From the NCBI GenBank assembly GCA_963924555.1, contig OZ004581.1:2170001-2234000 (forward strand): 64,000 nt of DNA, written 5' to 3'. The stretch comes from Crambe crambe. Lineage: Eukaryota; Porifera; Demospongiae; Poecilosclerida; Crambeidae. The notes beneath the pieces were generated by a model. The model was not told the DNA's origin and did not search any database. It worked only from the letters and a program-made list of their open reading frames with translations. This document shows, piece after piece, positions 32,067 through 54,371 of this stretch. Within the stretch, counting starts at the first letter, position 1. Every line of letters starts with the position of its first letter. Both the position numbers and the translations under genes were made by a program.

Positions 32067-32140
32067 TGCGCACGCGCAATAGGCGGCAGGGAATGCCCAG
32101 GTAATTTCCCCGGGGCACTCCCGACCTAGGCATATATAAA
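32067..32140 (+). promoter_or_regulatory. NRF-1-like, kappaB-like and TATA promoter of the repeat-array gene
   Basis: TGCGCACGCGCA at 32067-32078 fits an NRF-1 site. TTTCCCCGGGG is followed by GGGGCACTCC at 32112-32121, which fits GGGRNNYYCC (Rel/NF-kappaB). TATATAAA is at 32133-32140. The predicted transcript start is near 32165. Confidence 0.6.
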
Positions 32141-32252
32141 GGGAAGTCTTGCAAACCTCAAGCATAATATTATTTGCCTGCATGTAAAATGCAGGTGCCC
32201 TAGCTGATTCTAGAAAAATATCAAACTTTTTATCAAACTGGAATACTGCGTT

Positions 32253-35200
32253 GTGACCGTACCTTTAAGAAAACCGGACCGGTTGTTTGGAGAGTCAAAG
32301 GATGGCTTACACTCTTGCGGGATCGCACCCTCAAGAGAGTTAGAGTCGAAAAATGACTTACACTCTGATGCTGTTCCTTCAAAGGAGGATCACTACTCGT
32401 CTTCTCACTGCGGGATGGCCCCAAGAGAGTTAGAGTCAAAAAATGACTTAAACTCTGATGCCGTTCCCTCAAATGAATCAAGGTTGGATCACAACTCGTC
32501 TTCTCACTGCGGGATAGCACCCTCAAGAGAGTTAGAGTCGAAAAATGACTTACACTCTGATGCTGCTCCCTCGAAGGAGTCAAGGTTGGATCACAACTCG
32601 TCTTCTCACTGCGGGATTGCACCCTCAAGAGAGTTAGAGTCAAAAAATGACCTACACTCTGATGCCGTTCCCTCGAAGGAGTCAAGGTTGGATCACAACT
32701 CGTCTTCTCACTGCGGGATTGCACCCTCAAGAGAGTTAGAGTCAAAAAATGACCTACACTCTGATGCCGTTCCCTCGAAGGAGTCAAGGTTGGATCATAA
32801 CGCGTCTTCTCACTGCGGGATTGCACCCTCAAGAGAGTTAGAGTCAAAAAATGACCTACACTCTGATGCCGTTCCCTCGAAGGAGTCAAGGTTGGATCAT
32901 AACGCGTCTTCTCACTGCGGGATTGCACCCTCAAGAGAGTTAGAGTCAAAAAATGACCTACACTCTGATGCCGTTCCCTTGAAGGAGTCTAGGTTGGATC
33001 ATAACTTGTCTTCTCACTGCGGGATTGCACCCTCAAGAGAGTTAGAGTCAAAAAATGACCTACACTCTGATGCCGTTCTCTCGAAGGAGTCAAGGTTGGA
33101 TCACAACTCATCTTCTCACTGCGAGATTGCACCCTCAAGAGAGTTAGGGTCAAAAAATGACCTACACTCTGATGCCGTTCCCTCGAAGGAGTCAAGGTTG
33201 GATCACAACTCGTCTTCTCACTGCGGGATTGCACCCTCAAGAGAGTTAGAGTCAAAAAATGACCTACACTCTGATGCCGTTCCCTCGAAGGAGTCAAGGT
33301 TGGATCACAACTCGTCTTCTCACTGCGGGATTGCACCCTCAAGAGAGTTAGAGTCAAAAAATGACCTACACTCTGATGCCGTTCCCTTGAAGGAGTCAAG
33401 GTTGGATCATAACGCGTCTTCTCACTGCGGGATTGCACCCTCAAGAGAGTTAGAGTCAAAAAATGACCTACACTCTGATGCCGTTCCCTTGAAGGAGTCT
33501 AGGTTGGATCATAACTTGTCTTCTCACTGCGGGATTGCACCCTCAAGAGAGTTAGAGTCAAAAAATGACCTACACTCTGATGCCGTTCCCTCAAAGGAGT
33601 CAAGGTTGGATCACAACTCATCTTCTCACTGCGAGATTGCACCCTCAAGAGAGTTAGAGTCAAAAAATGACCTACACTCTGATGCCGTTCCCTCGAAGGA
33701 GTCAAGGTTGGATCACAACTCGTCTTCTCACTGCGGGATTACACCCTCAAGAGAGTTAGAGTCAAAAAATGACCTACACTCTGATGCCGTTCTCTCGAAG
33801 GAGTCAAGGTTGGATCACAACTCGTCTTCTCACTGCGGGATTGCACCCTCAAGAGAGTTAGAGTCAAAAAATGACCTACACTCTGATGCCGTTCCCTTGA
33901 AGGAGTCAAGGTTGGATCATAACGCGTCTTCTCACTGCGGGATTGCACCCTCAAGAGAGTTAGAGTCAAAAAATGACCTACACTCTGATGCCGTTCCCTC
34001 AAAGGAGTCAAGGTTGGATCATAACGCGTCTTCTCACTGCGGGATTGCACCCTCAAGAGAGTTAGAGTCAAAAAATGACCTACACTCTGATGCCGTTCTC
34101 TCGAAGGAGTCAAGGTTGGATCACAACTCGTCTTCTCACTGCGGAATAGCCCCCTCAAGAGAGTTAGAGTCAAAAAATGACCTACACTCTGATGCCGTTC
34201 CCTCGAAGGAGTCAAGTTTGGATCACAACTCGTCTTCTCACTGCGGAATAGCCCCCTCAAGAGAGTTAGAGTCAAACAATTATTTGCACTCTGATGCCAA
34301 GGAGTCAAGGTTGGATCACAACTCTTCTCACTGTGGGATCGCACCCTCAAGAGAGTTAGAGTTGAAAAATGATTTACTCTCTGATGCTGCTCCCTCGAAG
34401 GAATCAAGGTTGGATCACAACTCGTCTTCTCACTGTGGGATAGCACCCTCAAGAGAGTTAGAGTCAAAAAATGACCTACACTCTGATGCCGTTCCCTCGA
34501 AGGAGTCAAGGTTGGATCATAACTCGTCTTCTCACTGCGGAATAGCCCCCTCAAGAGAGTTAGAGTCAAAAAATGACCTACACTCTGATGCCGTTCCCTT
34601 GAAGGAGTCAAGGTTGGATCACAACTCGTCTTCTCACTGCGGGATTGGACCCTCAAGAGAGTTAGAGTCAAAAAATGACCTACACTCTGATGCCGTTCCC
34701 TCGAAGGAGTCAAGGTTGGATCATAACTCGTCTTCTCACTGCGGAATAGCCCCCTCAAGAGAGTTAGAGTCAAAAAATGACCTACACTCTGATGCTGTTC
34801 CCTCGAAGGAGTCAAGGTTGGATCACAACTCGTCTTCTCACTGTGGGATAGCACCCTCAAGAGAGTTAGAGTCAAAAAATGACCTACACTCTGATGCCAT
34901 TCCCTCGAAGGAGTCAGGGTTTGATCACAACTCGTCTTCTCACTGCGGGATTGCACCGTCAAGAGAGTTAGAGTTGAAAAATGACTTACGCTCTGATGCC
35001 AGAGAGATAGAGTTGAAAAATGATTTACTCTCTGATGCTGCTCCCTCGAAGGAGTCAAGGTTGGATCACAACTCGTCTTCTCACTGTGGGATTACACCCT
35101 CAAGAGAGTTAGAGTCAAAAAATAACTTACACTCTGATGCTGCTCCCTCAAAGGAGTTGGATCACAACTCTTCTTCTCACTGCGGGATCACACCCTCAAA

Positions 35201-35929
35201 AGAATTAGAGTCAAAAGACGACTTACACTCTCCTATTAAAGAAGTAAGTCACATAAATTGAGTTTTGCTAACTATCATGTGTGCACTTTTATTACCTAGG
35301 TTCAAGATTTAGTCCGTGTTGAGTTGCTTCCATTAACGGGAGCACTTTCAATTAAGTCAGCAATTTTGCTTATACTGAAGACATTCAGTTCACTGGCTTA
35401 CATAAAGGACATCATATTGAGCAAGACAGATACTTGTGAGGCTATTGAGCATTTCATCAAAGAAGCTTTGGCTCAAGATGAATCTACTATGATTATTGAA
35501 ACCTTAATTGAATATCTGCAGGAGGAAAATCAAAATGATTCAACTTACAAGCAGTTCTTGAAGAAATTCAAAGCAATAGAATCACAATTTGCTCTTGAGG
35601 CTTCACATAAAGTGAGCTCTACTGCAGAGGAAACTGAAGATGGTCGATGTTCTTCACCTTTACACATGTGCCTTCTTCAATTAGACTCTTGCTGTGAACC
35701 AAGCTGTTTCGATATCCCGATTAAGCATTTCACTTGTGTTTGTGAGGCTATCAGTGAAGATTTGGTTCAAGATGACTCAACTATTGAATATCCGCAAGAA
35801 GAAAATCAATGTAAGCAGTTCTTGAAAAAATTCAAAGCAATCGAGTCACAATCTGCTCTTGAGGCTTCACAGCTATTTCAATATCCCATTAACAGTACCA
35901 AAGAGAGTGACTTTCAGTATAGTTTATAA
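32253..35929 (+). CDS. 34-residue-repeat protein with the shared TRAF-cluster C-terminal domain
   Basis: A large exon stays open from at least 32253 to 35243 and joins exon 35300-35929 in phase 0. The true start is unclear: ATGCAG|GT at 32189-32194 may be exon 1 spliced to about 32301, or the first in-frame ATG at 32415 is used. The first part is about 28 copies of a 34-residue unit containing SRLDHNSSSHCGIAPSRELE and SKNDLHSDAVP. The second exon encodes VQDLVRVELLP, then FIKEALAQDE, LIEYLQEEN, and RCSSPLHMCLLQ with FDIPI, the same order as the genes at 37690, 41251 and 54520. Part of that module (KQFLKKFKAIESQ) is repeated near the C-terminus. The domain is helical and not one I can name. 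No zinc finger is present here, unlike its neighbours. Confidence 0.75.
32301..35210 (+). repeat. 102-bp coding minisatellite, about 28 copies
   Basis: The unit is 34 codons, so all frames stay in register; the antisense strand is also open for long stretches as a by-product. Variant units (NASSH, NLSSH, CEIAP, PLK, VLSK) recur in the same order twice, showing a higher-order repeat of several units and recent homogenisation. Units near 34270-34380 and 34960-35210 are more diverged and shorter. Confidence 0.9.
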
Positions 35930-36043
35930 TGTAACTTTAAGACATTACTTACAGTTTGATGTTGAGTTTCATTATGCTATATTATTAATTAGCTGATCAA
36001 GGAGATGAGAGGGGTTAATTAGTGGTCTGGACATTTTTTTTAA

Positions 36044-36053
36044 TTTTTTTTTT

Positions 36054-36084
<31 letters not shown>
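36044..36084. repeat. T20 then G21 homopolymer block
   Basis: Runs of T (36044-36063) and G (36064-36084) abut in non-coding DNA between the convergent genes ending at 35929 and 36351. Confidence 0.9.
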
Positions 36085-36350
36085 TGGCTGATTGTATGAA
36101 TAAATGGAGAGATTGGATACATGTAGCTATGTATGATTTATCACAGAAAACGTATATCACTGTGCATGTGACTGAGGGAACACTGCATGTGATCCCAAGT
36201 TAACTATAAGTATGATGATAATGATGATAAACATCTGACAGTGGAATTATAGCCACACTGTCACAACTATAGTAAGACTTGAGATCTGGTATGTAGCTAT
36301 AGCTACATGTAGCTATACACACTATAGGTTGTATTACTACATGGAGTCTT

Positions 36351-36923
36351 TTAATTATTGGAGAGAACAGTCTTCTCAGATACAAATATAATCTTATCCT
36401 TTGAAGTTTTCAGTATTAGTGCAATATATTCCGCACCACTATTTCTTTTGACGTCTTCAAAATTCCACTCATTATCAATGACAACATTCATGGTCTCACC
36501 AACTTCTCCATTATTGTCTCTTAGCAGCCTATTCAGTAGATAATGATGCAGTTTATCTTTATATTCTCTAAGACGTCTCTTACACACTTCATCACCCAGT
36601 TTTTCAACTATAGATGTAAGTAATGAAAGGTCAAACCAGTTCCATTCTTCGTTCAATGGACTATCATAGAAGAAAATGTCTTCAGTACTTCTTAGTTTAG
36701 TACATTTCAAACATAAATGCTCAGGTAGTACATCCAAAAGCTCTTCAAGAGGAGTTATCATCAATCTTCTTGAAATCGAAATGAACATTTTGTAGTAGCT
36801 TATTTTTATGAGTCTTGTTGCTTCTTGAAGTCGGTCTTTTTTCCTGATTTGGAGTTTACTAGTGCGCTTGCTGGTTTCTTCTGCCTGAGACTTGCTGCTA
36901 TGCGCACCTTCAGACATTAACAT
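36351..36923 (-). CDS. unrecognised helical protein, family B member 1
   Basis: Single exon, 190 residues. The ATG at 36921-36923 is chosen because the paralogue at 40414-40998 starts in the same GCACCATG context. I do not recognise the family. Visible features: a basic N-terminus, LIKISYYKMFISISRRL (like a death-fold or SAM helix), TPLEELLDVL, EDIFFYDSPL, EWNWFDLSLL, then YKDKLHHYLLNRLL, and a C-terminal IIFVSEKTV strand. Spacing of hydrophobic residues suggests an all-helix adaptor. No signal peptide or membrane helix. It is transcribed away from the RING gene at 37690, and the same head-to-head layout is repeated at 40414/41251. Confidence 0.75.
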   Translation of the reverse strand: MLMSEGAHSSKSQAEETSKRTSKLQIRKKDRLQEATRLIKISYYKMFISISRRLMITPLEELLDVLPEHLCLKCTKLRSTEDIFFYDSPLNEEWNWFDLSLLTSIVEKLGDEVCKRRLREYKDKLHHYLLNRLLRDNNGEVGETMNVVIDNEWNFEDVKRNSGAEYIALILKTSKDKIIFVSEKTVLSNN

Positions 36924-36968
36924 GGTGCAGAGAAATGATAACCCTAATCGCTACACTGTAACCATAAT

Positions 36969-37030
36969 CTTATAAACCCGGCCCCACCCCACCTGCGAGT
37001 CTATCCCTGGTGTTTTCCCCGGGATACCCC
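36969..37030 (-). promoter_or_regulatory. TATA and kappaB-like promoter between family B gene 1 and the RING gene
   Basis: On the minus strand TTTATAAG lies at 36970-36977, about 50 bp before the ATG. GTTTTCCCC followed by GGGATACCCC at 37021-37030 fits GGGRNNYYCC on both strands. The plus gene may start here through a non-coding first exon, since TTTTTCAG precedes its coding exon near 37659. Confidence 0.6.
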
Positions 37031-37689
37031 CTTAGGTACGCATTACAGCTCCAGCTGACGTCAAAACAAAAATTAATATTGCGCAATCTTGTAATCCGTG
37101 AGGGCTGTTTTAAGTTAAGGGGAAATACTTCAAATTGAAGTAGCTATATTCAAGTGAGTTTTTTTTTGAAGGGTGATGGGGCAGCTACAGTTAGCTAGCT
37201 ATATTCTATTTTTGAAACTGCTAAGACTTCTGATCTCATGATAGGTCAGGAGGATATAGGTTTTAAGTCTCAGCAGTTTTGAATGTATTTGAACCATCCA
37301 GAATTAGCCTTGCACAGCTGCCCACTTCTATAAACATCTTGGAGGTCAACATGAATGGCAGTATGCTGTATAGCACTGTTCTGAGCTCACTCTCTTTCTG
37401 AAAAGTAGCTTTTCTACATTGCATCTTGGGCCTTCGATGCTCTTGCTGTCCTGCAAGTTTGAAGACATGGTTCATGCTGACGCTAGAGATAAACAGGCTC
37501 AAAAAAAAGTTGCTAGATGCGCCTTTCCAAGATGGCAATGAGACCATGCTGTATGAGGTCATGTGCAATGGGTTTATACCACAAGTTTACCTTGTATACA
37601 TGCATGCATGTAGGTTTATGTTAAGACCTTTTTACACTTTTTCCCCCCTCTTTTTCAGGGTATATATTATTCATTATTCTCTCTCAATT

Positions 37690-39532
37690 ATGCCTGGTCA
37701 CAAGGAGAAATTTCAGTCTCCTTTAAAAAGAGAAGACATAACATGTCCTAAATGTTCATATGTACTTAAAGTACCTATTAAGGCAAGGTGCGGGCACACC
37801 TTTTGCAAAGATTGCGTTACAGATCTTTGTCCATTGGATGGAGAAGAAATAATTATCCAGCAGGAAGAATTAATTCAACTTCGTGATAAGATTTCAAATC
37901 TTGTTGTAACTTGCTATGAACCATGCTTTTGGATTGGTCTTTTGAAAGAATCAAAAGTGAGTTGTCAGTACTATAGCATGCTCTAATTCATGAATACACG
38001 TACCCCTAAGCTGGAATTGCTATCCAATAAATTCTTGTCCAATCAAAATAATAAAATTGAGAATGGGAGACATTTAGGCTACAAAACCTATATTTTCATG
38101 CATAGCTAGTAAGCTATATAAAGCAGTTGTTAAGTGTCATGAGTAATCATTCCAAGTAGCTAACATTCTTAGTGAGCATGGTACCAAGTTCAAAATTCAA
38201 TTTGGCAGAAATGATAATAATTGCTGTGTAAAGAAAATTCCTACTCATTTTTAGGACCATTTTAAAGAATGTGCGTACTATCACCAGAAGAAAGAAAAAA
38301 TAAGAAAAGTAAGAGACATATTTGATACTACAATGTTTTTGCAGCTGCATGCTTTGGTAGAACCAGTTGGTGTTATTTAGTGGTCTCTCTGTTGTTATCC
38401 TATACAGTGGATTGCAGTAATCTTGCAACATGAACTTCAGCACCAAACCAAAATTTACATAGCCTCCTTTCAAAGGACTTAATTGTGGCTTTAGAGTTGG
38501 GCTACTTAAAAGGAAGCTATGTAAATTTTGGTTTGGTGTTCTGAATTTCATGTTGCAAGATCACTGCAATCCACTGTACTAATACTTAGATAGCTGATAT
38601 CTGTGCTTATATGTACAGGTACTATAAGATTTTGCTGGTGAGTGGTTCCAGCCAGGCAAACCTTGAACCCACCTCTTGATGTGCATGGGTTCAACCCAGA
38701 TTAAATTGCATGTATATAAACAACTGCACCAGGATGTATAGATACAGCCCTCCTACCCCCCCTGCTAAAATCGGGATTGAGTCCGTGTTGAACCTGGATT
38801 GAAACCTGCATGTAAACAGGATCGATAATAATTATGCATGTACATATGTACAATTTCAATGAGTCATAAGATGAAAATTTCTCTAATGCCAGCTCAAAAG
38901 AAATTAGCTATAGCTAAACTTAATGAATGTAATTTTCATAGTGTATTCATAACTCATGAATGATGACAAAGGAGTTCTCCCTGCACATAATTATCATTAT
39001 GCCAAACACTACCTGCATGAGTTATCTCAAAATTTTATATTATTCACTTAGCTATTATTTTATGACACAGATATGTGATGCTGTATGCACTGAACTGCTT
39101 CCTTTTATGGAAGAACTGAGGTTAGTTCAGAATGCCATAATGTGTACTCTCAAAACATTCAATGGCCTAGCATACATGAAAAAATGTGTATCTAACAAAA
39201 CGAGTATTGGTGAAATTATGAACTATTTCATTGAAGAAGTTTTAATTCAAGACAATAGCAAAGCTGTCCTGATTTTTATTGAGTATTTGAAAGAAGAAAA
39301 TAGCAATTGTCTCGTTTATGATAACTTTTTGAGTAAAGTTAAAGAATTTGAGGCTTCAGAAAATGAGCCTCCAGGCACTGAGGCTTCCACAATGATGCAG
39401 AGTACAGAAGAATCTGAAGAGGGTCGTTGCTCATCTCCCTTGCACTTGTGCCTACTCCCGGGCTCACAAAACGAAATGTGTGTCTTCGACAAACCGATCT
39501 TAAAATATTTTGCAAAGACAATGGAAAACTAA
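37690..39532 (+). CDS. RING plus TRAF-type zinc finger protein with the shared C-terminal domain
   Basis: Exons 37690-37956, 38255-38308 and 39071-39532 join in phase 0, giving 260 residues. The RING reads CPKCSYVLKVPIKARCGHTF, then CKDC and CPLDGEE: a C3HC3D finger as in TRAF E3 ligases. It is followed by CYEPCFWIGLLKESK|DHFKEC split across exons 1 and 2, the C-x3-C-x-W-x-G...H-x3-C signature of TRAF zinc fingers. The rest is the unnamed cluster domain (ELLPFMEELRL, FIEEVLIQD, FIEYLKEEN, RCSSPLHLCLLPG, FDKPI) in place of a TRAF-C/MATH domain. By family it should be a cytosolic ubiquitin ligase or adaptor in immune signalling; partners are unknown. Intron 2 carries a foldback MITE. The ATG at 37690 is the nearest one ahead of the RING. 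Confidence 0.8.
38403..38578. mobile_element. foldback MITE in an intron of the RING gene
   Basis: Long inverted arms from TACAGTGGATTGCAGT to ATCACTGCAATCCACTGTA; the inner parts (AAAATTTACATAG / CTATGTAAATTTT) also pair. A related copy is at 62395-62517. Confidence 0.75.
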
Positions 39533-40413: not shown

Positions 40414-40998
40414 CTATGCATCCATGGAGTTCTCTGATACAAAAACAATATTATCCTGTAAAGTGTTCAATAGAGCAGCAATATATTCTCTTGCACTGCT
40501 TTCTCCTCCAGCCTCCTGCCAATTCCATTCTCTATCAACCACAATGTGCATGGTCTTGCCCACCATTTCATTGTTATCTTTTAATATCCGACTTAAAATG
40601 TACTGACGTAGATTGTCTTTGTACGATGCAAGACTTCTCCTACACACATCATCACCGAATTCCTTGACGATGGTTGTAAGAAGTGTAAGGTTGTACCACC
40701 TCCATTCTTTGATTAATGGACTATCGTACAAAAAAATGTCTTCAGTACTTTTCACATCCGAGCACTTTTTCTGTATATTCTCAGAAAACACTTTTAAAAG
40801 TTCTTCGAGTGGCGTCATTGATAATCTTCTTGATATCAGGAGGAACGTTCTGTAGTAGCTTATCTTTAATAATTGCGTAGTTTGTTGCAATCTTTCTTTG
40901 ATTTTTTCTTTACTGATTACAAGTTTATCTTCAGTAAATGCTGCTAAAGATTTATCATCTGAAGATGAGTGCTGCTCATACATACCACCAGATAGCAT
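40414..40998 (-). CDS. unrecognised helical protein, family B member 2
   Basis: Single exon, 194 residues from the ATG at 40996-40998 (GCACCATG, as in member 1). Paralogue of 36351-36923: LLKISYYRTFLLISRRL, TPLEELLKVF, EDIFLYDSPL, EWRWYNLTLL, FGDDVCRR, YKDNLRQYILSRIL and IVFVSENS line up without large gaps. The N-terminus (about 45 residues, Ser-rich) is not conserved. Function is unknown; the repeated W-x-W plus LL motif and the helix pattern suggest protein-protein contact. It is head-to-head with the gene at 41251 across a promoter of about 250 bp. Confidence 0.75.
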   Translation of the reverse strand: MLSGGMYEQHSSSDDKSLAAFTEDKLVISKEKIKERLQQTTQLLKISYYRTFLLISRRLSMTPLEELLKVFSENIQKKCSDVKSTEDIFLYDSPLIKEWRWYNLTLLTTIVKEFGDDVCRRSLASYKDNLRQYILSRILKDNNEMVGKTMHIVVDREWNWQEAGGESSAREYIAALLNTLQDNIVFVSENSMDA

Positions 40999-41108
40999 GG
41001 TGCTGCAGAAGAAAATCACGGCTACAGAATGCAATTCTATTTTTACAATGCATATGCTTTTATTACCATCTTGCGTCATCCTTCAAGCAAAAGCAAGGTG
41101 CTTACCCA

Positions 41109-41192
41109 GGGAAAATACCCGGGACATTACCTGGGACTATTGTGGTGGTTTTCCCGGGGAAATCCCCACAGTGAACGCGGCAGGTATATAAG
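41109..41192 (+). promoter_or_regulatory. bidirectional kappaB-like promoter with TATA box
   Basis: GGGAAAATACCC at 41109-41120 and the palindromic GGGGAAATCCCC at 41156-41167 (core GGGAAATCCC fits GGGRNNYYCC exactly) sit beside TTTTCCCGGGG. TATATAAG at 41185-41192 serves the plus gene (ATG 41251). On the minus side an AATAAAAG-like element near 41056-41063 could serve family B member 2. Confidence 0.65.
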
Positions 41193-41250
41193 CCGGTAAA
41201 GGAAGCCAAGCACACTCCCCGATCTCGCCACTTGTAGCTAGCAGTCAACC

Positions 41251-42858
41251 ATGGCTGCGTATCAAGATACCTTTTCGCCACCTTTAGAAAAAAAGCGCTG
41301 CAGTTGCTATTATTGCACCTATGTAGATATTAATCTAGCTTCTCAGGCTGCAGTTGCATCTGAGTTGCACCAGGAATGCATCAAGAAATTGAGCTCCGGA
41401 GAAGGAGCAACTGCGGATATACTCTGTTCTAGACAATGCTCTTGGAGAGGTACTATCAGGAATTTTGTGGTAAATTTTAGAGCTATAGATATATAGTTGA
41501 AGCTATTGCAACTGATATTATGAGTGAGTATGAGTGAGGAATTTTGTTATTATGGGATTATGTTACAGGTACATTCTGAAAGTTGTGAACACTTTCTTCT
41601 TAAGAAAGAAAAGACAGAAAGTAAGTTAGAAAGAGTCTTTTCAAATCCAGTACTGACTAGCTAGCTAGCTAGCTACACAACAATTTGTGATAATTAAGGC
41701 ATGCATGCACATGATGTCGATATTCGTGCAGTGCCTCCAACCTGATTTCAGTCTCATTATTACCATGTCGGAATTTCAGTATTTTCAGCCATATTAAGTA
41801 ATAATATAAAATGTGTGTAGTGAATTTGCAGTTAAATTTAAGAGCGTGAATAAGTCACACCCCCTTTTGACAATAGCTGATTCAGCTCAACTGTGCACAG
41901 CATCTTTCCTTGTAGCTATAGCTAGCTATATATATATAGTTGATAAATTATCGTTAAGTGCATGAGAGAAAGGTGGGTTATTATGCCACACATACATTGT
42001 TAGCCTGCCTGCATAGCTATATAGCTATGTTGCTATGCTAGCTACTGATACTTTTTCTTGCTGCATGGACTCTCAGTGTACATGCAAAGCCTATAGCTTT
42101 AGTGCTATATATTTGAAGCCTTTCTAAGTTCTAAACTTTGTCAGCATATCTAGGATGTAAAACTTAGTTCGAAACTTTGCCCCTTGCACGGAATAATGTT
42201 CATACATGTTGCTTATCCAGTAGCTAACACCAATACAATTTGGTATGTGGTTGCCCTTGAAAAAAGCCCATTTCCCACAAGGTTTTCAAAAAAAAGTTGC
42301 CTGCGAAACTAAAGTTTGCTTGGCCTTATAAGTTTTTGGAGGGCTGAACCTGCATGCAGTAATCTGGTTGTATTATTATTACATGCAGGTGTCTTGGACT
42401 TGGTACGACTTGAATTGCTTCCGCATTTGAGAAGACTTACTTTAAATTCAGTCCAAAGTAATATATTCTTTGTATTGGATACATTCAGTTCACTTGCACA
42501 TATGAAAGTTGCTATGGTGAAGCAGGCAAATATTGATGAAATCATTGAAAATTTCATCAATGAAGCCATGATTCGTGATTGCCCCGAGGCAATAAGAACC
42601 CTAATCGAGTATATACAAGTTGGTAACCAAAATAATAATGGTTCAACATATACAAGGTTCTTGAAAAAGTTTGAAGAAACTTATTTGAATCCTTGCATAA
42701 TGAGTGAAGAGGAAACTGCAGAAGCTGATGGTTCTTCAGCAACTTTGCACTTGTGCCTTCTTCAGGAGCTAGACTTCAAACCGGGCATATTTGAAATTCC
42801 AGTTTGTAAGCCTTTCATTGTTACTAAAGAAAGAGATAACAATTCTCTGAGCCAGTAG
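41251..42858 (+). CDS. TRAF-type zinc finger protein with degenerate RING and the shared C-terminal domain
   Basis: Exons 41251-41469, 41569-41620 and 42389-42858 (phases 0 and 1) give 246 residues. The start codon follows the TATA box by 58 bp. The N-terminus has scattered Cys (CSCYYC, HQEC) where a RING would be, but the C3HC3D spacing is lost. CSRQCSWRGTIRNFV|VHSESC crosses the first intron and fits the TRAF zinc finger (C-x3-C-x-W-x-G...H-x3-C). The third exon is the cluster domain: DLVRLELLPHLRRL, FINEAMIRD, LIEYIQ, FLKKFEE, LHLCLLQ and FEIPV. Loss of the RING suggests a non-ligase adaptor or dominant-negative partner of the RING gene at 37690; this is inference. Confidence 0.75.
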
Positions 42859-43121
42859 CAATGATTATTGGCATCTCAGCTGACCACTCAGTGGTACCAT
42901 ACACCTCGTTTTTATTTACTAAAAATGAATCGATTCGCAGGTGTAAACTCGAATGTTTCGCAAGTCTAAACAGCAAGAAGCTAGTGCATTCTTGGGAAAT
43001 GCCAGTTTAACTTTATAGTTATATTGTTGTTTTATTTATTATTGTTTTATTAGTATAGCTATTGTTCTAAGATTTTGTAGAATTCTATTTTGTGATTGTG
43101 AATTCACAGCTACAATAAATC

Positions 43122-43180
43122 TGCGCATGCGTAAGGTATTCACCCCAGTGTTTTCCCAGGGGGGTTCCCTAGTCTCGCGG
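43122..43180 (+). promoter_or_regulatory. orphan cluster-type promoter block
   Basis: TGCGCATGCG (43122-43131, NRF-1-like), GTGTTTTCCC and GGGGGTTCCC (43160-43169, GGGRNNYYCC) are arranged exactly as at 54324-54371, with the same flanks (AAATCTGCGCATGCGTAAGG and CCCTAGTCTCG). No gene of the family follows before the transposon at 43993. Confidence 0.55.
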
Positions 43181-43521
43181 AGCCCCTCCCCCGTTTAAAA
43201 AAATTTTTTTTTCAAGAGTCGATCACATACCAAGTAGAAAAAAATAGGCAATAAGTCTTATTCATATTTACAATCAGATGTATCACTGAGAGAAGCTGTC
43301 AAGGCAATAAGTATTTTGATTATTGAAAATATTATGTAGCAAGTTAACAGGTGAAAGGTCAGGGAGCACAACTCTACTCTCTCACTAGTGTCCCAAGTCA
43401 CAGATTATTGAAGTTGGAAGGCCATAACCTGATAAAAGACAGGAAACACTTCCATAATACAAGCAGTTGATTATGACCTAACTGCTTTTTGTCAGCTATT
43501 AATACAGATGATAGTTAAAGC

Positions 43522-43850
43522 TGACTAGATACTCACCTGAACACGAGTCTCATCTCTGTCTGCAATCAAGGCTTGCCGCTACAGGAGAAAGTGTTCTTAG
43601 ATTGCATGGTAAAGATCGTCAACATGGAGACAGTAGTACAATTACCGATGCATGATAGTAAATTATTATTATTTTTTAATCATTCAATGCAGACTAGATA
43701 CTCACCTGAACCACATAAATGCCTGTATACACTAGAGTCTCATCTCTGTCTACAATCAAGGCTTGCCGCTCAAAGGTAAAGAACTGACTCTGCTCGTGTT
43801 CTTAAATTGTATGATAAAGATCGTCAACACGGAGACGGTACGCGGTATAT
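43522..43850. repeat. direct duplication of about 165 bp
   Basis: GATACTCACCTGAAC, GAGTCTCATCTCTGTCT and CAATCAAGGCTTGCCGCT to AAGATCGTCAACA occur twice in order. Non-coding; the rest of 42859-43990 shows nothing coding. Confidence 0.7.
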
Positions 43851-43992
43851 GTAGTACAATTTCTGCGCAGTCCAAAACGAAGTAGAGTTAGTTAATAGCA
43901 TGAAGAAGAACGAAGTTGCTTTACAGATCCGTGATGGCTGAGGTACTCAGGGAAGAAACGCGCTTTGATTATTTATTTATTTATTTAGATTA

Positions 43993-46633
43993 GGGTAAAA
44001 CGGGGTAATTCCGGTCACTCTTTGAACGGTCTGACTTAACTTATTTGCTGGACATAAAGCACTGGACTAAAAATGTCACTATTCCTACTGCATACACTTG
44101 GATGCAAGTACTATTCGTGCACAAATTTTCACAGCTCCTGAGTTTACCGTTTCGGGGGGAAAAAAATGATTCTAATATAATATATGTTCTAAATATCAGG
44201 TTTTTACGTTTTGGCTGTTGGGGGTAATTAATTCCGTTCACCAAAAGAAATTTTAAAAAAACATGGATCGTGAAGCTTGTGAGCTGCCTGTGACTGTGTG
44301 AGCATGAAAAGGATACAATACACAAGGTAACAGACTGGAATGATAAATAAATTGAGTATTTGAAGTAATATATATTCTATGATTGACAGTGCTCACATGA
44401 CCATTCATCATCTTCTGTCAACATAGAAGAAAGCCCTGCACACCAGTAATGCCACCAAGTTTCACAGGTGTCACAGCCAATCCAACTGTCCATCTCTTTG
44501 TTGGTGTAAGCCTTGCCACATTTCTCACAGCAAACATCATCTGGGTCAGATATTGCATTTGTGACATCTTTTTTCTTCTTCCCATTTTTCTTCTTAGCCG
44601 CTTTCTCAGCTTCTTTCATCACATCAGCTTCTTCAAGTCTCTCAATAATTTCATCTCTTGTCAAGACTTCACCGGTACACTTTAGCTCTATTCTGCGACG
44701 TCTCTGAGGTTTTATCTGACCTGAAGTCGGTTTCAGAACCTCGCAAAAATAGCCACGTAGTTCTGCTCGTAAGGGTGTTTCACTACTTGGATGAATGGTC
44801 AGAGTAGCTGTAATTTCACATCGATGTGAGGGTTCTGCCATGACAGAAGAAGGGGTTAACTTTGAAGGCTTCACTGCATTAGGATTGAATGGTACCAATC
44901 CTGTTGCTTCAAAACCAGATTTGAGGTGATTTGGTAGCATGGATTTGTCCCACAACTGCTTGATTAAACTGGGGAAGCGTTCTTTTGTGATGTTCATGGC
45001 TCTGGTTGCAATCTTGTACTTCTTCAAGATAATTCGCCATTGTGTTTTTACAGGTCCAAATACTCCAACGTCCAATGGCTGTAAAACATGTGTAGTATTT
45101 GGCGGCAGGCAAAATAGGTGGATTCCTAGAGACCGTGCTTTCTTGATGAGGGAGATACTCATGTGTGAAAAATGTCCATCAAAAAATAAGACTACTGGAC
45201 CAGTAATCAGAAGGTGCTTGACTGCAGGATAGAATTGCTGTTCGAACCACTGGAGATAGTTGACCTCTTCCATCCAACCTGAGGGGCTGACACCATAACA
45301 TGTACCTGCTGCCCCTCCCTCTGTCCAGGTATTGTACAAGTGTTTCCCCTTGTATAATATGAAAGGAGGGAGTTTGATACCGGTCGCACTACCGCATGCA
45401 TTCACTGTAATAAACTGATGGTCAGATGCTCCTCCTACTTCACTCACACTTCGTTCACCACGTCTTGCAAGGATCTTTTTGCTTGTCATACTCAGACAAA
45501 AACCTGTTTCATCTGAATTCCAGATACGAGCAGCATAGTCTGGAACTGGTCCACGACGCTTGAGTAAACCAATGTCTTCAAAGAAACTCCTTATGGTTTT
45601 AAACCAACTCCTCAAGGTCTCTGGACTAGCAGCAGTGGCTCATTTGGCAGAAAGGTGTTGAGGTTTCCTCTCTGTTAGTTTGGGCCATCTTCGCAGAAAT
45701 CCTTGCCATCAATCTGGACCAGGAACACCATCCTTGAAGGGATTTGCTCGTTTTTGATCCCGTAAAAAATTGTATACAATATCAGTGATAATATCTCTTG
45801 TCAACCCATACCCTAATTCTTGCAAGACTTGACAAGTGATGACAATTTCTTTCTCTTCCTCATATGTAAGGGTTGTCGGCCTACCAGCAACAACCTTACT
45901 TGCTTTTCCTGTTCAATTATAAATTAAATTTTTATAGTTAACAAATTTAATACTGTAATGTAGATTTATTTTTACCAGAATAGTGGTCTTGTAGGGTACT
46001 GTATGCTATCCCAAATTCAATTGCTGCACTTCGAATGCTCTTTCCCTCTCTAATAGCCCTAATAGCATCCTGAATTCTTGCCTCCTTCTCCTTACAGGCC
46101 CCTTGCAAAGTCTTCCTTACTCTCCTTGGCATCTCTTCACTTTTTTTTTTCAAATCCACTACACTATGCATAGTTGTATCTAGCATGAATAGGTAGTGTT
46201 TACAAACACCTTCATATTTCACCACCCACGCATTCCTGCCTATTCACTTCGCGGTTTAGGTACATTTATAGAATCCTATCTCTGCTGCTCTGTTTTTGCA
46301 GTAGATTTGAATGTTGGACATCAAAGTTACTTATTATAGTTATAGTTTTTATTCATGGCCTTTCAGTTCAGTGATCAATCTTATTGAAGGAACAAGGAGA
46401 GATTTACTGAAGTTTTGGGAAGTTGAAATTATCGATTTCATGCAGTTAGATATTTTTAAAGAGTTGCAGTAAAAAAAAAAAAGAAGCTAGCTAGAGCTCA
46501 ACTCTAGAGAATGTTTTAGTTTATGGTCCACTTTATCTGCAAACTGTTTTATATCTTTGTAGAAGCAGTAGTTCTTGCAGCGCAGTACGTAGAAACTGGA
46601 GTGACCGGAAATACCCCGCGACCAGAATTACCC
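43993..46633 (-). mobile_element. pogo/Tigger-like DNA transposon with TA target duplication
   Basis: Left end TA-GGGTAAAACGGGGTAATT and right end, read inverted, TA-GGGTAATTCTGGTCGCGG share GGGTAA and an inner TTCCGGTCACTC. TA flanks both ends, as for the Tc1-mariner superfamily. It is about 2.64 kb and spans one transposase gene. Confidence 0.75.
44377..46132 (-). CDS. pogo-like transposase with HTH-psq, DDE domain and PHD finger, damaged
   Basis: Exon 1 (46132 down to 45976) begins MPRRVRKTLQ and holds a pipsqueak-type HTH (AIRAIREGKSIRSAAIEFGI). A 67-bp intron ends at 45909. The following exon continues GKASKVVAGRPTTL and runs to 44377. The DDE core shows IWNSDETGF, VVLFFDGHFSH and TTHVLQPLDVGVFGP. 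After a lysine-rich stretch, the C-terminus is a C4HC3 PHD finger (CCEKCGKAY ... WIGCDTCETWWHYWC ... WSCEHC). Two in-frame stops lie in the segment between the HTH and DDE parts (about 45640-45710), so it is probably inactive, though the long open DDE-PHD part (412 codons) implies youth. A PHD finger on a transposase could read histone tails. Confidence 0.75.
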
Positions 46634-47419
46634 TACATTACATTCTACTTTAATAGTATGTAATTTTTGAACAAGTCTGGTGTTCTAGGCGTCGAGGGTC
46701 ACCAATGTAGTAGTGTCTACGAACTACTTGAATATAATGATCTTTATTTCATAAAGATAACTGACAGAGCCCAGTAATGTATGACAGTGGTACAAGTGCC
46801 TAAAGACATGGCATGATGTGTGTGTCTGGTAAAGGGTCTGTTCAGTGTCCACCATGTACCACACATTATTAATTTTGAAGTGGCCCCAAAGGGCCTAACA
46901 AGTGAATGTCAGTGTGATGAGAAGGTAGTTACTACTCAGAGATGAGTCCTGATTCAGAGTTAATCAAATCAATTGATGGTGTTTGTCTGCAAGCTTGTCC
47001 ACAGCTGGAGCGAGCTCCCTGGATGGCTAGCTGTAGTTTTGCAGTCCAATTATTTAGTTTGGCGTAGCCGACCCTTTACCTCCTTTTTCTTTTGGGAAGT
47101 AGTCGCCACATTGAACTTGTGTCAGTGCAGCTATAGTTGTGCTCCAATCAGATTGCAGTAATTGCATTCCAAGCACGAAAATCTCGTTGCCCGCACCTAT
47201 TTCTAGCAAGATAGCCACGTCCATTTTTCATTGAGCAGACTAGCCATGCTTGAGACTTTGAAAAGCGGAAGCAAGACGGCAAGTTAGATTGATAGGTTTG
47301 GTTAAATTTTGTGAGTCCAGTAGTCCAGTCCAGCGATTACAGACTCCCTGCAGCTTGAACATAAACTCTGCCAACCAACTTGCAAAGCACTGTAATAGCT
47401 ACCAACTCAAAGAGAAAAA
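46634..47419. other. intergenic DNA, no gene seen
   Basis: No motif-bearing frame. Near 47376 there is a half end of the MITE found at 39970-40122. Confidence 0.5.
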
Positions 47420-48040
47420 ATGAAGTCATAATTCATTAAATGATGTCAAAGAGGTTCTCCCCTCCATAATAAGAGACATGGACATACCAGCATGAGTTAT
47501 CTCAAGATTCAAATTATTCACTCATAATTATTCTTTCATGACACAGATATAGCTATGATGCTGTATGCACTAAACTGCTTCCTTTTATGAAAGAATCCTT
47601 ATCACTGAGGCTAGTTCAGAGCATCATGATGTGTACTCTCGAGATATTCAATGGGCTAACCATACGTGTATCAAGCAACTGCCAAAAAGAGCATTGGTGA
47701 AATTATGATCTATTTTTATCAAGTATTTGAAGGAAGAAAAATAATAGCAATTGTCTCAAAGTCAAAGAATTTGAGGCTAGGCTCCAGGCATCGAGGCTTC
47801 TGCAATGATGCAGAGTGTAGAAGAAACTCAAGAGAGTCGTTGCTCATCTCCCTCGCACTTATATGTCTTCTGGGTTCACAAGACAAAACATGTGTCTTCA
47901 ACAAACCAATCTTGCTTAAAAGTATTTGCAAAGACAGTGGAATTCGAAAACTTAATTACTTTAAAAATCAAATTTGGCACCCGACTTGCATGGCTATTGA
48001 CCATACACATAATACATATTTTTTTATATTATCATAGGTA
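47420..48040 (+). pseudogene. decayed copy of the last exon and flanks of the RING gene
   Basis: Resembles 38930-39600, including the intron end (CTTTCATGACACAGATAT). Readable pieces: LRLVQ, a degenerate TLEIFNGL, QSVEETQESRCSSPSHLYVF, and NKPI. Several small deletions break the frame and most of the helix after NGL is lost. No RING or zinc-finger exon precedes it. Host-gene duplicate, not processed. Confidence 0.75.
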
Positions 48041-49671
48041 TAATTTTAGTTGTTATAGGTATAGCTACGTGTATGAGAGGTTCATACTTGCTTTTTAATA
48101 TTATAGCTAATTGATAGTGCATGTGATTGGTGCCATATCATCTTATGGATTATATAGCCTAACATTATGCGCTAATACAATATCTGCTGACTCGACAATG
48201 TATGCTTCCCACATAGCTATATAACCACAGCAGGATAGCAGGTTGGTTGTCAGGACGGTTTGGGGAATAGGTTTAACACAACTGCATGCATGGATAGGGT
48301 TTCTTAGGTCCGTAAGCCACTACCTATTACTCATTCCTTGTGGACAACCATCCTGAAATCTACAGTATAAGCAAAGCATAAAGGTCATCATGTAAAACTT
48401 GCAACAGAGTTCTGGACTTTTCTAGCTAGTGGTTAATCGAACTCTGGCTGCATCAATGCATGAAATGTGATAACATTGTAGTAGGATGCTATTGCAAGTC
48501 TTATAAAATCAACTGCTTTCCTACTAAACTGTCGATCTGCTTATTCTCTGCCTGGCCAACTAACATAACTCAACAGCAAATCTTAGTTGAAGCACAAACA
48601 AGTTGGAGCATAATATAATTATTCTCTAAAGGCTATATATAGTTCAACTTTTCCTCAAGCTGCAGTAGCTATCTAAATATAGGTATAAGACATGCACTCT
48701 CAATGGGGTTCTCCATGGAATTAAAGACCGAGGGTGATGTAAATGATTACCAAGGCAAACCTGAGGTGATTATTTACATCATCCCAAGGACATGAAGAAC
48801 CCCATTGAGTGTCTTACTTGCTTAGAAAATGGTAAAATTCAATGTTTTCTATCTTATTCTCCATGAAATAGGCTCTTATTGCCTGTGAGGTGTCCTATGA
48901 TGAATAGTCTGAGGGTAGTTACTAGGTAAGAGACCTAGCCACACTACTAAAACAGGCGACTTCATGAGACTACATGAGACTGAGCAGGACTAAAGATCAA
49001 AGCATACTATGGATATAATTTTCATAAGCTCTATTCATAGCTGTTGAGTATTGACATAATTACTTCCCACACAATCATATCATGATAAATGAGGTAGATT
49101 CACTAAAATGACTGTAGGAGCAAGCATGCTTTTACCCACAAAAAGAAGCCAGTTAGTATTGCATGACCTATCATGGACTATTTCATTGAAGATAGCTAGC
49201 CTACTGTAGTATACCACAAAATCTCACTGGCATCGAATTCAATATTAAATCAATGGTACCAGTGCAGTGTTGTCCCTAGTGTGTGAGAATCACTGTACCT
49301 CCCTGTCATATGCCTCACTGACAAAGTTTATCCAGATGTCTCAATTTGCTCCCTTTCCAGCTAGTCAAAATATATATAATTATAATATTATACATGCCTA
49401 GTAGAAAAATTGTTTCTATTTCTCCATGCATTTTAGGCATCATTTAGAAGGTACCTTCACACTTACTTTGATCTAACAAGAGCAGGAAATTAAACCAAAA
49501 CTTAATTCTTTGCCAGTGAAGCTATTGAGAATTATTAGCTATTTGCACACACATATTAAAACAACATGGTACATTCAGCAAAAAGATTATTACAGTACGT
49601 AGGTTACGATAGCTAATCAGCTCTAAACAACAACAAATGTAAGTTCTATAATTATAGCTACGTAAGTTCCA
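48041..49671. other. intergenic DNA, no gene seen
   Basis: Contains the foldback at 48682-48820. The minus-strand Death-PNP gene ends at 49672. Confidence 0.5.
48682..48820. mobile_element. foldback element, about 140 bp
   Basis: CTCAATGGGGTTCT and AGAACCCCATTGAG are inverted ends around a shorter inner pair (GATGTAAATGATTACC / GGTGATTATTTACATC). Confidence 0.6.
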
Positions 49672-52600
49672 TTACATTGTTTTCAATTTTTCCTGTAATT
49701 CTTTAATCTGATCTTTAGTGGCTTGTGTTATGTCATCAAGGTCGACTGGAGGATTTGGCTCCAAACGCATGAATAATAGCTGGTTGACCCCCTTTTCTAT
49801 ATAAAAGAAATGATACAATGACAATACAGTAGGAAATTTTCATGGGTAAAAAAAATTAATAATTGTCCTAGCCGGCCACCAGGAAAAAGAAAAGAAGAAG
49901 AAAGAATGAAAGAAGTTATATATTATAGCCATCCTAAAATTTTTCCATCATTAATTTTCCTTCCCCTGTTATGTGCAATAACTATAATGTATATTAATGG
50001 ACTAGTACTGAGGGTTTGTTCAGAATATTGAGGTTTAGCTGTAAGCCACTAGCTATTATGCCACTATGCTTCGATCAGTATACCTACTACAGTATGTACT
50101 GTATGTTCGAAATTATTTCAGGAGAATGCCTTAAGCCTTAACTACAACCACCAGCTCACCTTTGAATTTTTGTATATCACTTTCATGTATGCCTTTATCA
50201 CGCAACCATCTTGCAAGCTCATCAGAATTCATCTTCTTAGGGTCAGCTTAAACACAAAAATGATCAATAATTAAAGTGTACGTAGGTAATGCTAACACAA
50301 TGAAAGAGAGCTGGTTGCACTCGATGATGTATAGCTACATCGTATAATTTACATCATTGTGTGATACAGTGTATGTTAACAAAAATTATGGTGCTTGACA
50401 TGATAGTATGTACCATTTATCATTGATTCGAGTAGGCCAACCTTATCAGTCAGCATTTCCTTTGTAAAATCGAAAGCAGCCATGGAAGCGGTAAACTGCC
50501 AATCATCACTTTTGTCTTCGTCCCCATAATCAACAACTCCTTTGATTATTATAACTCCTTTGACATTATTATCTTCACAATTCTGTATCCTCAATAGCTC
50601 ATATCCTTCCATTTCACCCCCTATCACTTCTGGAACTGCATCATTGATCTTCTTTTTCTCAACTTTACTACTAACAAGGGCAGCCATAGAAGCAAATGTA
50701 CCTGGGTACGCTGTTGAGCAAGGATTTGGTTTTCGATTACAAGCTACTTCAAATTTTTTCCATAATTCCGTCTGTTTACAAAAGATGCGAGAAAGTTTAT
50801 TATTAATCAGCCTGGTCTCACCCCGGTTTATAATAACATTCCCATCAAATTTATAATTTCGAAAATCAGCAATCTTTTCGGATACCAAGACATCACCAAA
50901 ATTATGCTTTTTACGGCTAAAAGCATAGCTCACGCCGACTCCCAAAATATAGCAAACGTTTGGAAATTTCTTCAATGCTTCTTCAACATCCACTCCACTG
51001 TAACCTCCTGAACGTGTTTGAACCAATGCCACCTTCTGTCCAGCAAATATTCCAATTATATATCCCTCTGCATATACAGCATTCCCTTCAGCTTTATCAG
51101 GTTTATTAGGTGCAGTAATGTAGGTCGTTGCAGCATTAAATTCCTTTTCATTGACAACGTGAAGCATAAGTTTGACCTCTTCACAGAATTTTTTTGTATC
51201 TCCTGCACTCATTTTTTCTGGTTGAACTGGTTTGTATTTATGATCATACTCTTTGAACCTTGGCGACACAACATCTAAATAATCAAATTGTACATTTAAT
51301 GAGACTACCTGTCTATCTAATAATACACATCTGACCACTATGGCCTGTGATATTTTCAGCTATAGCTCAAGCGCTCAAGCTCTTATGTTAAAATGAAGGG
51401 CTTGTGATTACTCTCTACACACTTAATTCAGTACATACTTTCTGATGTGACAGGGATAACTGAGATTTTGGCATGAGTGCTTCTCATCAATCTTGATGCA
51501 GCTCATGCAGTTAACAGTATATATAAACTTTAATTACATGTAAAGACTAGCTTGAACAATTGCATGACACTTCTCAACAAGTCTTTTGAAACGTGAAAGT
51601 TCCAAAGACTTAAAAGGGGGCTTAACTTGCCCTTTCTTTATATAAGACCACTACGTATACTTTTCCAAACTGGTCACATTGGACATCTTGATAAGATAAT
51701 AAACCTTGTTAGTAATAGTAAAAATAATAATTGGCTGTTCAAACAAGTAATCAATATGACTATGTAGTACCTTATCATGTGTACATATGCAGGGGTTTTG
51801 CAGCTCTGCAGTGTACTGATTCTGTATACTGTAGTGAACTAACAATCATGTGAAGCCATACATAATCAAGATATTTATCAGTGTGGACATCCTTACATTC
51901 CACAATCAGGTACACATCTTGATAAAGACTTTGGTCATTACATATTAGCTTATAAGACTTCAAATAATTTTTTGGAAAGCATGTGGTTACAAAGACTGCA
52001 TGAATGCAATACTATATACCTGTCAATTGTAGAGAATGAAGGCAAGTGGTGTGCATCTATTGTTTGTCCCAGAAGCTTCTTTTTAGCACTACAGACTACG
52101 GTAGTTTGTTTACTTAACAGCATAACCAGTCACTAATGAATGCACCACACTAACATTCAGACAATGCAGTAAGCTAAGACAGCTGCATGTATCAATCAAC
52201 AGTGCACAAGGTCAATGTCCAGTTCATGAAAACTGTTCTTCTCCACAGTTCTTGAGTCCTTCTGTCTTCAGTCAGTGGCCAGAATATGGGCGTGGTACAG
52301 GGGTGGGACCTCAAAAGTAGGTGTGACTTGTGGTAGAATTTAGTGTCCCTGTTAAGTTAGTTCTCGGAACTATGAATTGCTACTGCACTCACACATTGAA
52401 TTTTAGTGTGTCAATTTAATACATGTGTGCTACTTGTATTAGCTTCTGATAATACCTGCATTATTAATTTTCTCATCTTCTATAACTTTTGACGTAGGAT
52501 CAGTAGGAGTAGGAGTCATTATTTTTTCTGTAAGAGAAGCAACATAATTATTATGATAATTATGTAGCTTAGCGGGAGATTTTTTACACGAAGATTTATA

Positions 52601-53462
52601 ATAATAATTATGCCTATGCAGCTATGGCTCCTTCCTTTCAATGTGACTCATGCATTAGCAATACTGAGACCTTAGAAACCTGAGGCAGTTAGGCTGTAGA
52701 GTGAGGACTCTACAGCTAAGGGCCTAAAAGTTTCGAAAAAAATAGCTAGTAACCATAGCTAATTATAGGTGTGATCACAAAAAATCTTTTGACTTTATTG
52801 AGCACACAATTTGCTTGCACCCCTAAACATAAACATAACTTCCACTGAACAATTATTGTTTGAATTCCCATTGAATTGTTCAAAAGAGAACAACCACAAG
52901 CCTTTGGTCAGTAATCATGTATAACATTAACATCTCCCACTGTAAATAAATAATCTGGCAACCCTAAAGCATTAATTTACCTTTAGAAATTTTTGCTGCA
53001 ATGGCATTATGACCACGCTTGCGAAGTGCTACACACAGACTATTCCATGTGGGTAGACCACTTTTTGTAATGATGTTGTCCTCCTGATTTAGCCATGCTC
53101 TAATCATATCATCATGAGAGTTATTCATCCTTACAAGTCTATAATAACTCAATCCCAATGCAACTCCAATATACATCAAGTTCGCATTAGACAGTTGACT
53201 CAAATATCGACGGACTTCCACCAGATCTGTTTTAAAATGATTGATAGTACAATTATGACAATTTAATTTTACTGGTTTGCTAACTAGCTACTAAGTTTTA
53301 AGTCAAAGAGAGTTCCTCTTTCTACACAAGATTTACGTAGCTATAGCTATGCATGGAGTATTCTAGAAACCTAAGTAGCTATAGCTAACTAGCTAGTATC
53401 AACCAGCTATTTTCATTTCAACTAGTTATTTAGCTAACTTACGTACCTATCCCTTCACCCAT
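49672..53462 (-). CDS. Death-domain plus nucleoside phosphorylase plus SAM-like protein
   Basis: Exons in transcript order: 53462-53447, 53226-52981, 52527-52456, 51274-50414, 50246-50160 and 49796-49672, every junction phase 1, 468 residues. Exon 1 gives only MGEGI, so this paralogue is cytosolic, unlike 15489-17450. The Death domain reads LMYIGVALGLSYYRL, AWLNQEDN and LCVALRKRGHNAIAAKI. The PNP exon keeps QKVALVQTRSGGYSG, GGEMEGYELL and VDYGDEDKSDDW, that is the base/ribose Glu and catalytic Asp region. The last exons add ELARWLRDKGIHESDIQKF and DDITQATKDQIKELQ, the SAM-like domain also ending the caspase gene. PNP-type folds act as nucleoside or ATP nucleosidases in some immune proteins of bacteria and animals; activity here is inferred. 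SAM-like plus Death domains could drive oligomerisation of the enzyme. Confidence 0.85.
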
Positions 53463-53974
53463 TACGAATGACGGTTTATTCTGCAAACTATAATGCTAAT
53501 CGCGCGCACCCGCCCCTCACGAAATAAAGGTGCTCTCTGATTGAAATCATTTGCTGCTTTTTTATCACTTACTAGCCTAGTCTGGCGTAGCCGCCCCTCG
53601 CGCAATATGACCGCATACTGGACCAGTTCTTGTGTATCACGTTGCGCATGCGTATTTCAAGTTACTTGAAGTTTGCATGCAGGCTTAAGTCTTGTATCTC
53701 TAACGCTTGGCTGCCTCCTTTGCAGCGGTTGAAACGGCCATCAAAGCTTGCAAGGCTTTTAGTCTGTCGTATCCTAACGCTTAGGCTTTTAGTCTGTCGT
53801 ATCCTAACGCTTATATCCTAACGCTGATTTTGACCTACGTATCACCGCTGAAAACAAGTGAATGGGTCTAGCTCTTTAGGACTGGAAATGTGTGCTTAGC
53901 CACGCCCATTTCACAACAATTACGATAACATTTTCCAAGCCTCAAATCAGTCTGTGCATGCGCTGACGATCTTT

Positions 53975-54060
53975 AAAATAATTGACCGTCTTCTGGAACA
54001 CTGCCTAAATCGGGCCAGGAGCATATTTAGGCAGTGTTCTAGAAGACGGTCAATTATTTT
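53975..54060. repeat. near-perfect 36-bp hairpin with 14-base loop
   Basis: Arms 53975-54010 and 54025-54060 pair over all 36 positions; the one DNA mismatch would be a G-U pair in RNA. It could be a young foldback transposon or a microRNA-like precursor; no expression evidence is available. Confidence 0.6.
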
Positions 54061-54323
54061 ATTTTTATATCCATCAGAATTTGAGCTTATTTTCAGTCAA
54101 CTGTATTTCCAGAGAATGTAATGTCATCTTGGATAATAGGAGAGTAATATTAATTTTTATAAATTAATTGAACTTTTCTTTTTCATCATTAGCTATGTAG
54201 CTAGTTATTATCACTATTAATTGTCATAATGTTTACCATAGTATTCTTTTATTTATTTATTATTATTATTATTATTATTTTGCACCCTTTGTAAACTTCA
54301 AGGCTATTTTATTCTTATAAATC

Positions 54324-54371
54324 TGCGCATGCGTAAGGTAGTCTCCCCGGTGTTTTCCCGGGGGGTTTCCC
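54324..54371 (+). promoter_or_regulatory. NRF-1-like and kappaB-like promoter of the short cluster gene
   Basis: TGCGCATGCG at 54324-54333, GTGTTTTCCC at 54350-54359, then GGGGTTTCCC at 54362-54371 (fits GGGRNNYYCC). The block copies 43122-43180. TTAATA near 54399 may act as a weak TATA. Confidence 0.6.

Follow-up and report, generated by a model that had tools for sequence, protein, structure and literature searches.

Promoters of Rel/NF-kappaB target genes carry kappaB sites, and the DNA binding of sponge NF-kappaB is described as close to that of human p50 (PMC5700166). In the sponge A. queenslandica, native bacteria are reported to bring NF-kappaB into the nucleus, with eight TRAFs induced at 2 h (PMC13372038), and a study of 3,309 promoters from this species describes 15 enriched motifs, Nrf-1 among them and four matching no known motif, a TATA box in 26% of promoters and a large number of genes arranged head to head (PMC4773876). 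Here we describe a short element that recurs in five blocks within 64,000 nucleotides of Crambe crambe DNA (contig OZ004581.1, positions 2,170,001 to 2,234,000; hereafter the window, to which all coordinates refer). Similar to the kappaB sites of known target promoters, the blocks fit GGGRNNYYCC in 5/5 cases, hold the GGG and CC halves fixed around a variable centre and, at blocks 1 and 3, have a TATA box nearby. They differ in pairing this candidate binding site with an abutting imperfect one, 11-12 base pairs (bp) upstream, whose left half is never GGG.

We read the blocks, with a probability of roughly 0.4, as the promoter element of a duplicated gene module that NF-kappaB would read. The combination of NF-kappaB activation and TRAF induction in A. 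queenslandica would provide a matching biological setting (PMC13372038), with the difference that the common domain of the genes in the window does not emerge as TRAF.

A composite element in five blocks

An earlier note on this DNA had described TTTTCCC or TTTCCCC abutting a G run, followed by a site fitting GGGRNNYYCC, at 32112-32121, 37021-37030, 41156-41167, 43160-43169 and 54362-54371. The sequences are present at all five coordinates, and the described arrangement holds on the + strand in every block. Scanning both strands of the 64 kilobases (kb) for TTCCC-N(0-2)-GGG gave 7 strand matches: the five blocks (+), a minus-strand match at 41162, which is the reverse strand of block 3 itself, and a minus-strand match at 41114, an inverted copy beside block 3. 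All five + strand matches extend into GGGRNNYYCC and neither of the two minus-strand matches does. The full composite gave 6 strand matches at 5 loci in the window and, as a pattern defined post hoc with the data already seen, occurred in 0/200 Markov-1, 0/200 Markov-3 and 0/60 Markov-5 simulated windows. Its separate parts are less striking: the kappaB 10-mer alone has 19 strand matches against 5.6 (standard deviation 3.2) under Markov-1 and 10.9 (standard deviation 4.9) under Markov-3, and TTCCC..GGG alone has 7 against means of 1.7 and 2.2, with maxima of 6 and 9. The five blocks are real and beyond chance.

What the blocks have in common is longer than first described: a core of roughly CCCNGGTGTTTTCCC-N-GGG followed by CC, which we represented as a 24-mer model and, as a general pattern, as CCCNGGTRNTTTCCC-N(0-1)-GGG-N(2-6)-CC. 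The best 15 rows of the full model within the window all fall in block regions. With one lineage left out of the model at a time, blocks 2 and 5 were each found again at rank 4 in the whole window. Six copies can be aligned, the sixth being the inverted copy beside block 3, identified by model scan and alignment and sharing 28 bp at 82% with block 5 (BLAST, E 0.11). TTTCCC, GGG and the distal CC are invariant across the six, and the centre of the downstream site, site II, differs in both letters and length; a variable centre between fixed ends is what would be expected of a dimer site. Site II fits kappaB in 5/5 blocks and is directly preceded, 11-12 bp upstream, by an imperfect site I, with one mismatch to kappaB in blocks 1, 2, 3 and 5 and two in block 4. 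On this pattern, the core is best read as two abutting kappaB-like sites. A literature search on the core letters returned only unrelated titles among the matches listed.

The likeness of the copies exceeds that of their surroundings. Between paralogous genes, Nei-Gojobori estimates of synonymous divergence are 1.5 (for the pair of minus-strand genes, M, introduced below), 1.9, 2.1 and 3.6, with identities at fourfold sites of 15/30, 12/23, 6/15 and 5/22 in the same order, so that silent sites are near saturation. Cores of different lineages agree at 10 to 19 of 24 positions (mean 15.1), and those of blocks 4 and 5 at 21. Blocks 1 and 2 agree at 16/24 core positions against the fourfold identity of 5/22, and blocks 2 and 3 at 16/24 against 6/15 for the C genes, also introduced below, and 15/30 for the M genes. 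In 19/20 flank comparisons, some of 200 random segments did as well as the real pair. The sole flank pair to beat all 200 lies upstream of blocks 4 and 5 and forms the remainder of a 66 bp segment that these two have in common; the next-best pairs were matched or beaten by 8, 13, 17 and 17 of 200. Because the flanks cannot be aligned and silent sites are almost saturated, the core seems to have survived the decay around it; it would have been held or recently spread, and the excess of conservation is moderate.

In the scheme that we propose, the blocks would be copies of one short proximal promoter element, spread by tandem duplication of a gene module. The module would consist of the minus-strand gene M and a plus-strand gene with a domain that we call C, diverging across a common intergenic promoter, and a 24-30 bp core would have been kept by selection during the decay of its flanks. 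The element would most likely work through two kappaB-like sites set end to end, namely site I, GGTGNTTTCCC, whose left half is weak, and site II, GGG-N(3-6)-CCC. A p50-like sponge NF-kappaB would bind it and render transcription of the plus-strand gene inducible; at blocks 2 and 3, perhaps both divergent genes would be driven. The kappaB reading is good but unproven. If NF-kappaB reads the element, the window would offer a defined cis-element for sponge immunity, in several natural variants and together with a bidirectional pair. It would then speak to the way in which duplicated signalling genes came under a single regulator in early animals.

Several observations weigh against this scheme. 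First, blocks 1 and 4 reach only rank 10 when the 24-mer model excludes them (11.9 and 15.3 bits), and for block 3, excluded in the same way, the best 12 rows listed lack the + core and contain its reverse strand (rank 6) and its inverted neighbours (ranks 5 and 7). Second, a full GGG half is never present in site I, block 4 requires two mismatches there, and site II of the inverted sixth copy does not fit kappaB; a factor other than Rel may constrain site I. Third, the fit of the kappaB 10-mer is partly circular, the blocks having been picked by that 10-mer. Fourth, the core was itself selected for its likeness, and in one of three gene-matched pairs, blocks 1 and 3, it shows no excess (10/24 against 12/23 fourfold sites). 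Finally, the genes do not always stand where the scheme would place them: block 1 lies 3.2 kb from its C exon, with a TATA box and the frame of a 102 bp repeat between them; block 4 has no gene directly downstream and lies about 300 bp past the stop of C copy 3; and the gene after block 5 is not significantly kin to the C domain (window-wide E 0.17).

Genes and domains around the blocks

An M gene and a C gene flank both block 2 and block 3 (Table 1), block 2 lying at 98 bp from the minus-strand ATG and block 3 at 84 bp from the + strand ATG, which indicates that an M-block-C module was duplicated. The three intact C-domain exons have 39-50% of aligned residues in common. The joins between exons in the plus-strand gene models are predictions from sequence.

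Table 1. Features of the window: blocks, core copies, neighbouring genes and repeats
Feature	Position	Strand	Details
Block 1	32093-32122	+	core 32093-32116; site I 32100-32110 (1 mismatch); site II 32112-32122
Block 1 flanks			NRF-1-like palindrome 32067-32078 upstream; TATATAAA at 32133 downstream
Block 2	37002-37031	+	site I 37009-37019 (1 mismatch); site II 37021-37030; between divergent genes
Block 2 TTTATAA	36970-36976		minus side
Block 3	41138-41167	+	site I 41145-41155 (1 mismatch); site II 41156-41167; TATATAAG at 41185
Sixth core copy, inverted	41103-41126	-	beside block 3, towards M2 gene
Block 4	43115-43180	+	66 bp segment; NRF-1-like 43122-43133; site I 43147-43157 (2 mismatches); site II 43159-43169
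Block 5	54317-54382	+	66 bp segment; NRF-1-like 54324-54335; site I 54349-54359 (1 mismatch); site II 54361-54371
M1 gene	36351-36923	-	190 amino acids from ATG; divergent from block 2; 49% amino acid identity to M2
M2 gene	40414-41079	-	221 amino acids from ATG; divergent from block 3
RING-finger exon after block 2	37690-37986	+	Pfam zf-RING_UBOX 1.9e-06 (above cut-off); TRAF3_RING 0.0012 (below cut-off)
Putative first coding exon after block 3	41251-41448	+	Cys-rich; ATG at 41251; no Pfam match
C-domain exon, copy 1	35300-35929	+	3.2 kb after block 1
C-domain exon, copy 2	39074-39532	+	2 kb after block 2; predicted linkage to RING exon
C-domain exon, copy 3	42391-42858	+	1.2 kb after block 3; predicted linkage to 41251 exon
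C-domain copy 4	47426-48037	+	broken over three frames; nearest downstream copy to block 4, 4.3 kb away
Gene after block 5	54520-54971	+	two putative coding exons, 54520-54663 and 54726-54968; weak C-domain kinship
102 bp tandem repeat	32214-35261	+	after block 1; 25.8 copies (Tandem Repeats Finder), 30 unit markers
DNA transposon	44001-46618	-	between block 4 and C copy 4; DDE_1 transposase open reading frame 44377-45639; 20 bp terminal inverted repeats

According to the earlier note, one promoter is shared by a whole TRAF-like cluster whose coding regions differ at the N terminus. The first part holds for the element, which is common to the blocks, and for promoter position, which is clear at blocks 2 and 3; the label TRAF-like fits at most one RING exon. 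The N-terminal difference stands, with a RING finger after block 2 and a Cys-rich exon lacking a Pfam match after block 3. In Pfam searches, neither the first exon after block 3 nor that after block 5 showed a RING, leaving the exon after block 2 as the only one, and no RING remnant precedes the broken C copy 4 at E <= 1. The 41251-41448 exon resembles the RING exon weakly (23-24% identity, E 0.001-0.002), no more strongly than does one match inside the transposon that looks like chance (E 0.003).

The C domain itself gave no Pfam match above cut-off in the three C copies searched, no PDB sequence match better than E 0.57 and no Foldseek match at E <= 0.001. Its structure model is all helical, with a predicted local distance difference test score (pLDDT) of 57, a low confidence too poor to name the fold, and the model of M is likewise too poor to name one (pLDDT 45). 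TRAF-C/MATH domains are beta sandwiches. Since the all-helical C model is unlike these and the domain has no Pfam, PDB or fold match, a TRAF-like character is not supported for the family. No relatives of the C or M domain turned up when viral contigs were searched at the protein level. A shuffle test hints at distant kinship between the C domain and the gene that follows block 5, with 2 and 4 of about 2,757 scored shuffles (3,000 made) as good as the real sequence; given the window-wide E value, we do not count it.

Two observations concern the DNA next to individual blocks. In the intergenic region of block 3 (41103-41167), two opposed core copies lie one towards each divergent gene. In the 102 bp repeat after block 1, all 29 marker spacings (39, 90, 96 or 102) are multiples of 3 and lie in an open frame, a pattern that hints at translation into a repeat of about 34 residues.

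Accompanying sites and candidate factors

The NRF-1-like palindrome YGCGCAYGCGYR that the earlier note had reported at three blocks was recovered near 3/5 (32067, 43122 and 54324). The last two are treated as a single event, since blocks 4 and 5 have 66 bp in common at 91%. A fourth NRF-1-like site, at 53643, stands without a block. A TATA box after three blocks, also reported, was found downstream on the + strand at two (blocks 1 and 3), and a third is reached only by counting the minus side of block 2: TTTATAA occurs only on the minus side at blocks 2 and 5, and block 4 is without any TATA.

Sites of this sort invite a different account, in which the core is a general core-promoter motif of the genome, a common proximal sponge motif that is not confined to this family and that Rel does not read, and several promoters merely happen to lie close together. 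The position of blocks 2 and 3 between divergent genes and the NRF-1-like sites at three blocks would suit such a motif, as does the likeness to A. queenslandica proximal promoters in NRF-1-like sites, a minority of TATA boxes, divergent genes and compact intergenic DNA (PMC4773876). A word search of the main text of that study did not find NF-kappaB. Yet the best 15 model matches keep to block regions in a window that has other genes, for example the caspase gene at 25197, and the core is not explained by GC-box, NRF-1 or KLF strings. We regard this account as doubtful, while still deserving serious weight as the main rival. Should the element prove genome-wide, it might be one of the sponge promoter motifs that are still unassigned.

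Among 19 consensus rows compared with the five 40 bp blocks, only the kappaB 10-mer and 11-mer are present in all five. This presence is owed partly to the choice of blocks, and the proximal position is clear for blocks 2 and 3 only. The strings for EBF, AP2, STAT, E2F, CSL, Sp1, IRF, ETS and CRE fit 0-1/5 blocks, KLF and Runx were rejected on consensus fit, and GGAAAA (NFAT-like), found in 4/5 blocks, is made of the same TTTTCC letters.

The core could also be a conserved promoter element of the family that is read by a non-Rel factor, such as a zinc-finger protein or an EBF/AP2-like dimer on TCCC-N-GGG. The most constant part of the core is indeed CCCNGGTGTTTTCCC-N-GGG, and in site I the place of the kappaB GGG is taken by GGT or GTG; however, the TCCC-N-GGG spacing is variable by one base, a freedom that a rigid palindrome would not have, EBF and strict AP2 strings fit 0/5 blocks and a loose AP2 string 1/5, and the conserved far CC would require a second explanation. 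We hold a non-Rel reader to be very unlikely.

Blocks 4 and 5 and other parts of the window

Blocks 4 and 5 form an odd pair. Their common 66 bp at 91% include the NRF-1-like site and end abruptly (BLAST). Looked at as the possible end of a transposable element, the segment extending beyond the core is common to these two blocks only, and no further copy of it appears in the window among the matches listed. By eye, the three + frames of 43170-44000 contain no clear exon. The surroundings of block 4 fit either a decayed family member cut off by the transposon or a small dispersed repeat. The transposon also carries a PHD-finger match, below cut-off.

Blocks 4 and 5 at least, and perhaps all five, might thus sit in a short mobile or repeated element with an NRF-1-like and a kappaB-like site. 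The 66 bp segment, with its abrupt ends, is much closer between the two blocks than their genes are, and block 4 has a transposon nearby and no gene directly after it. Such an element fits blocks 1-3 poorly, because these have only the core in common, among the matches listed, and surroundings each of their own, and the absence of another 66 bp copy from the listed matches in the window speaks against it too. Scans of collections that hardly contain sponge DNA gave nothing sponge-like: in viral contigs the core had 0 matches and the NRF-1-like part 3, and in bacterial genomes a shorter form of the core matched 91 stretches against about 120 expected, with no sponge title among the best 80 of 91. 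A dispersed repeat is, in our judgement, unlikely.

A bolder version of the NF-kappaB reading would combine both aspects. Here, a family-specific cassette of two abutting kappaB-like sites would act as a bidirectional NF-kappaB switch for fast-evolving sponge immune signalling genes and, as the 66 bp of blocks 4 and 5 might illustrate, would have been copied to new loci independently of the genes, so connecting further genes to a single microbe-response circuit. We put this forward as speculation that is quite improbable as a whole.

Elsewhere in the window, a caspase-domain open reading frame (ORF) lies at 25197-26060 (Peptidase_C14 2.5e-26), and the scan of the 64 kb found no composite block near it. 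A pair of ORFs, one Death-domain-like and one nucleoside-phosphorylase-like, occurs twice in opposite orientation, at 15746-17450 and 50376-53287. The Death-domain-like ORF at 15746 on the + strand (Pfam Death 0.0093, below cut-off) has a relative at 52964 on the minus strand at 44%, and the nucleoside-phosphorylase-like ORF at 16506 on the + strand (PNP_UDP_1 1.2e-06) has one at 50376 on the minus strand at 63%, with a partial third copy at 27985-28416. Large duplications lie within 1-13042, for example 1-2956 with 9636-12609 at 94% identity. Finally, TAGCTA, a hexamer in which sponge DNA is rich, occurs in 238 copies in the window against 112 under Markov-3.

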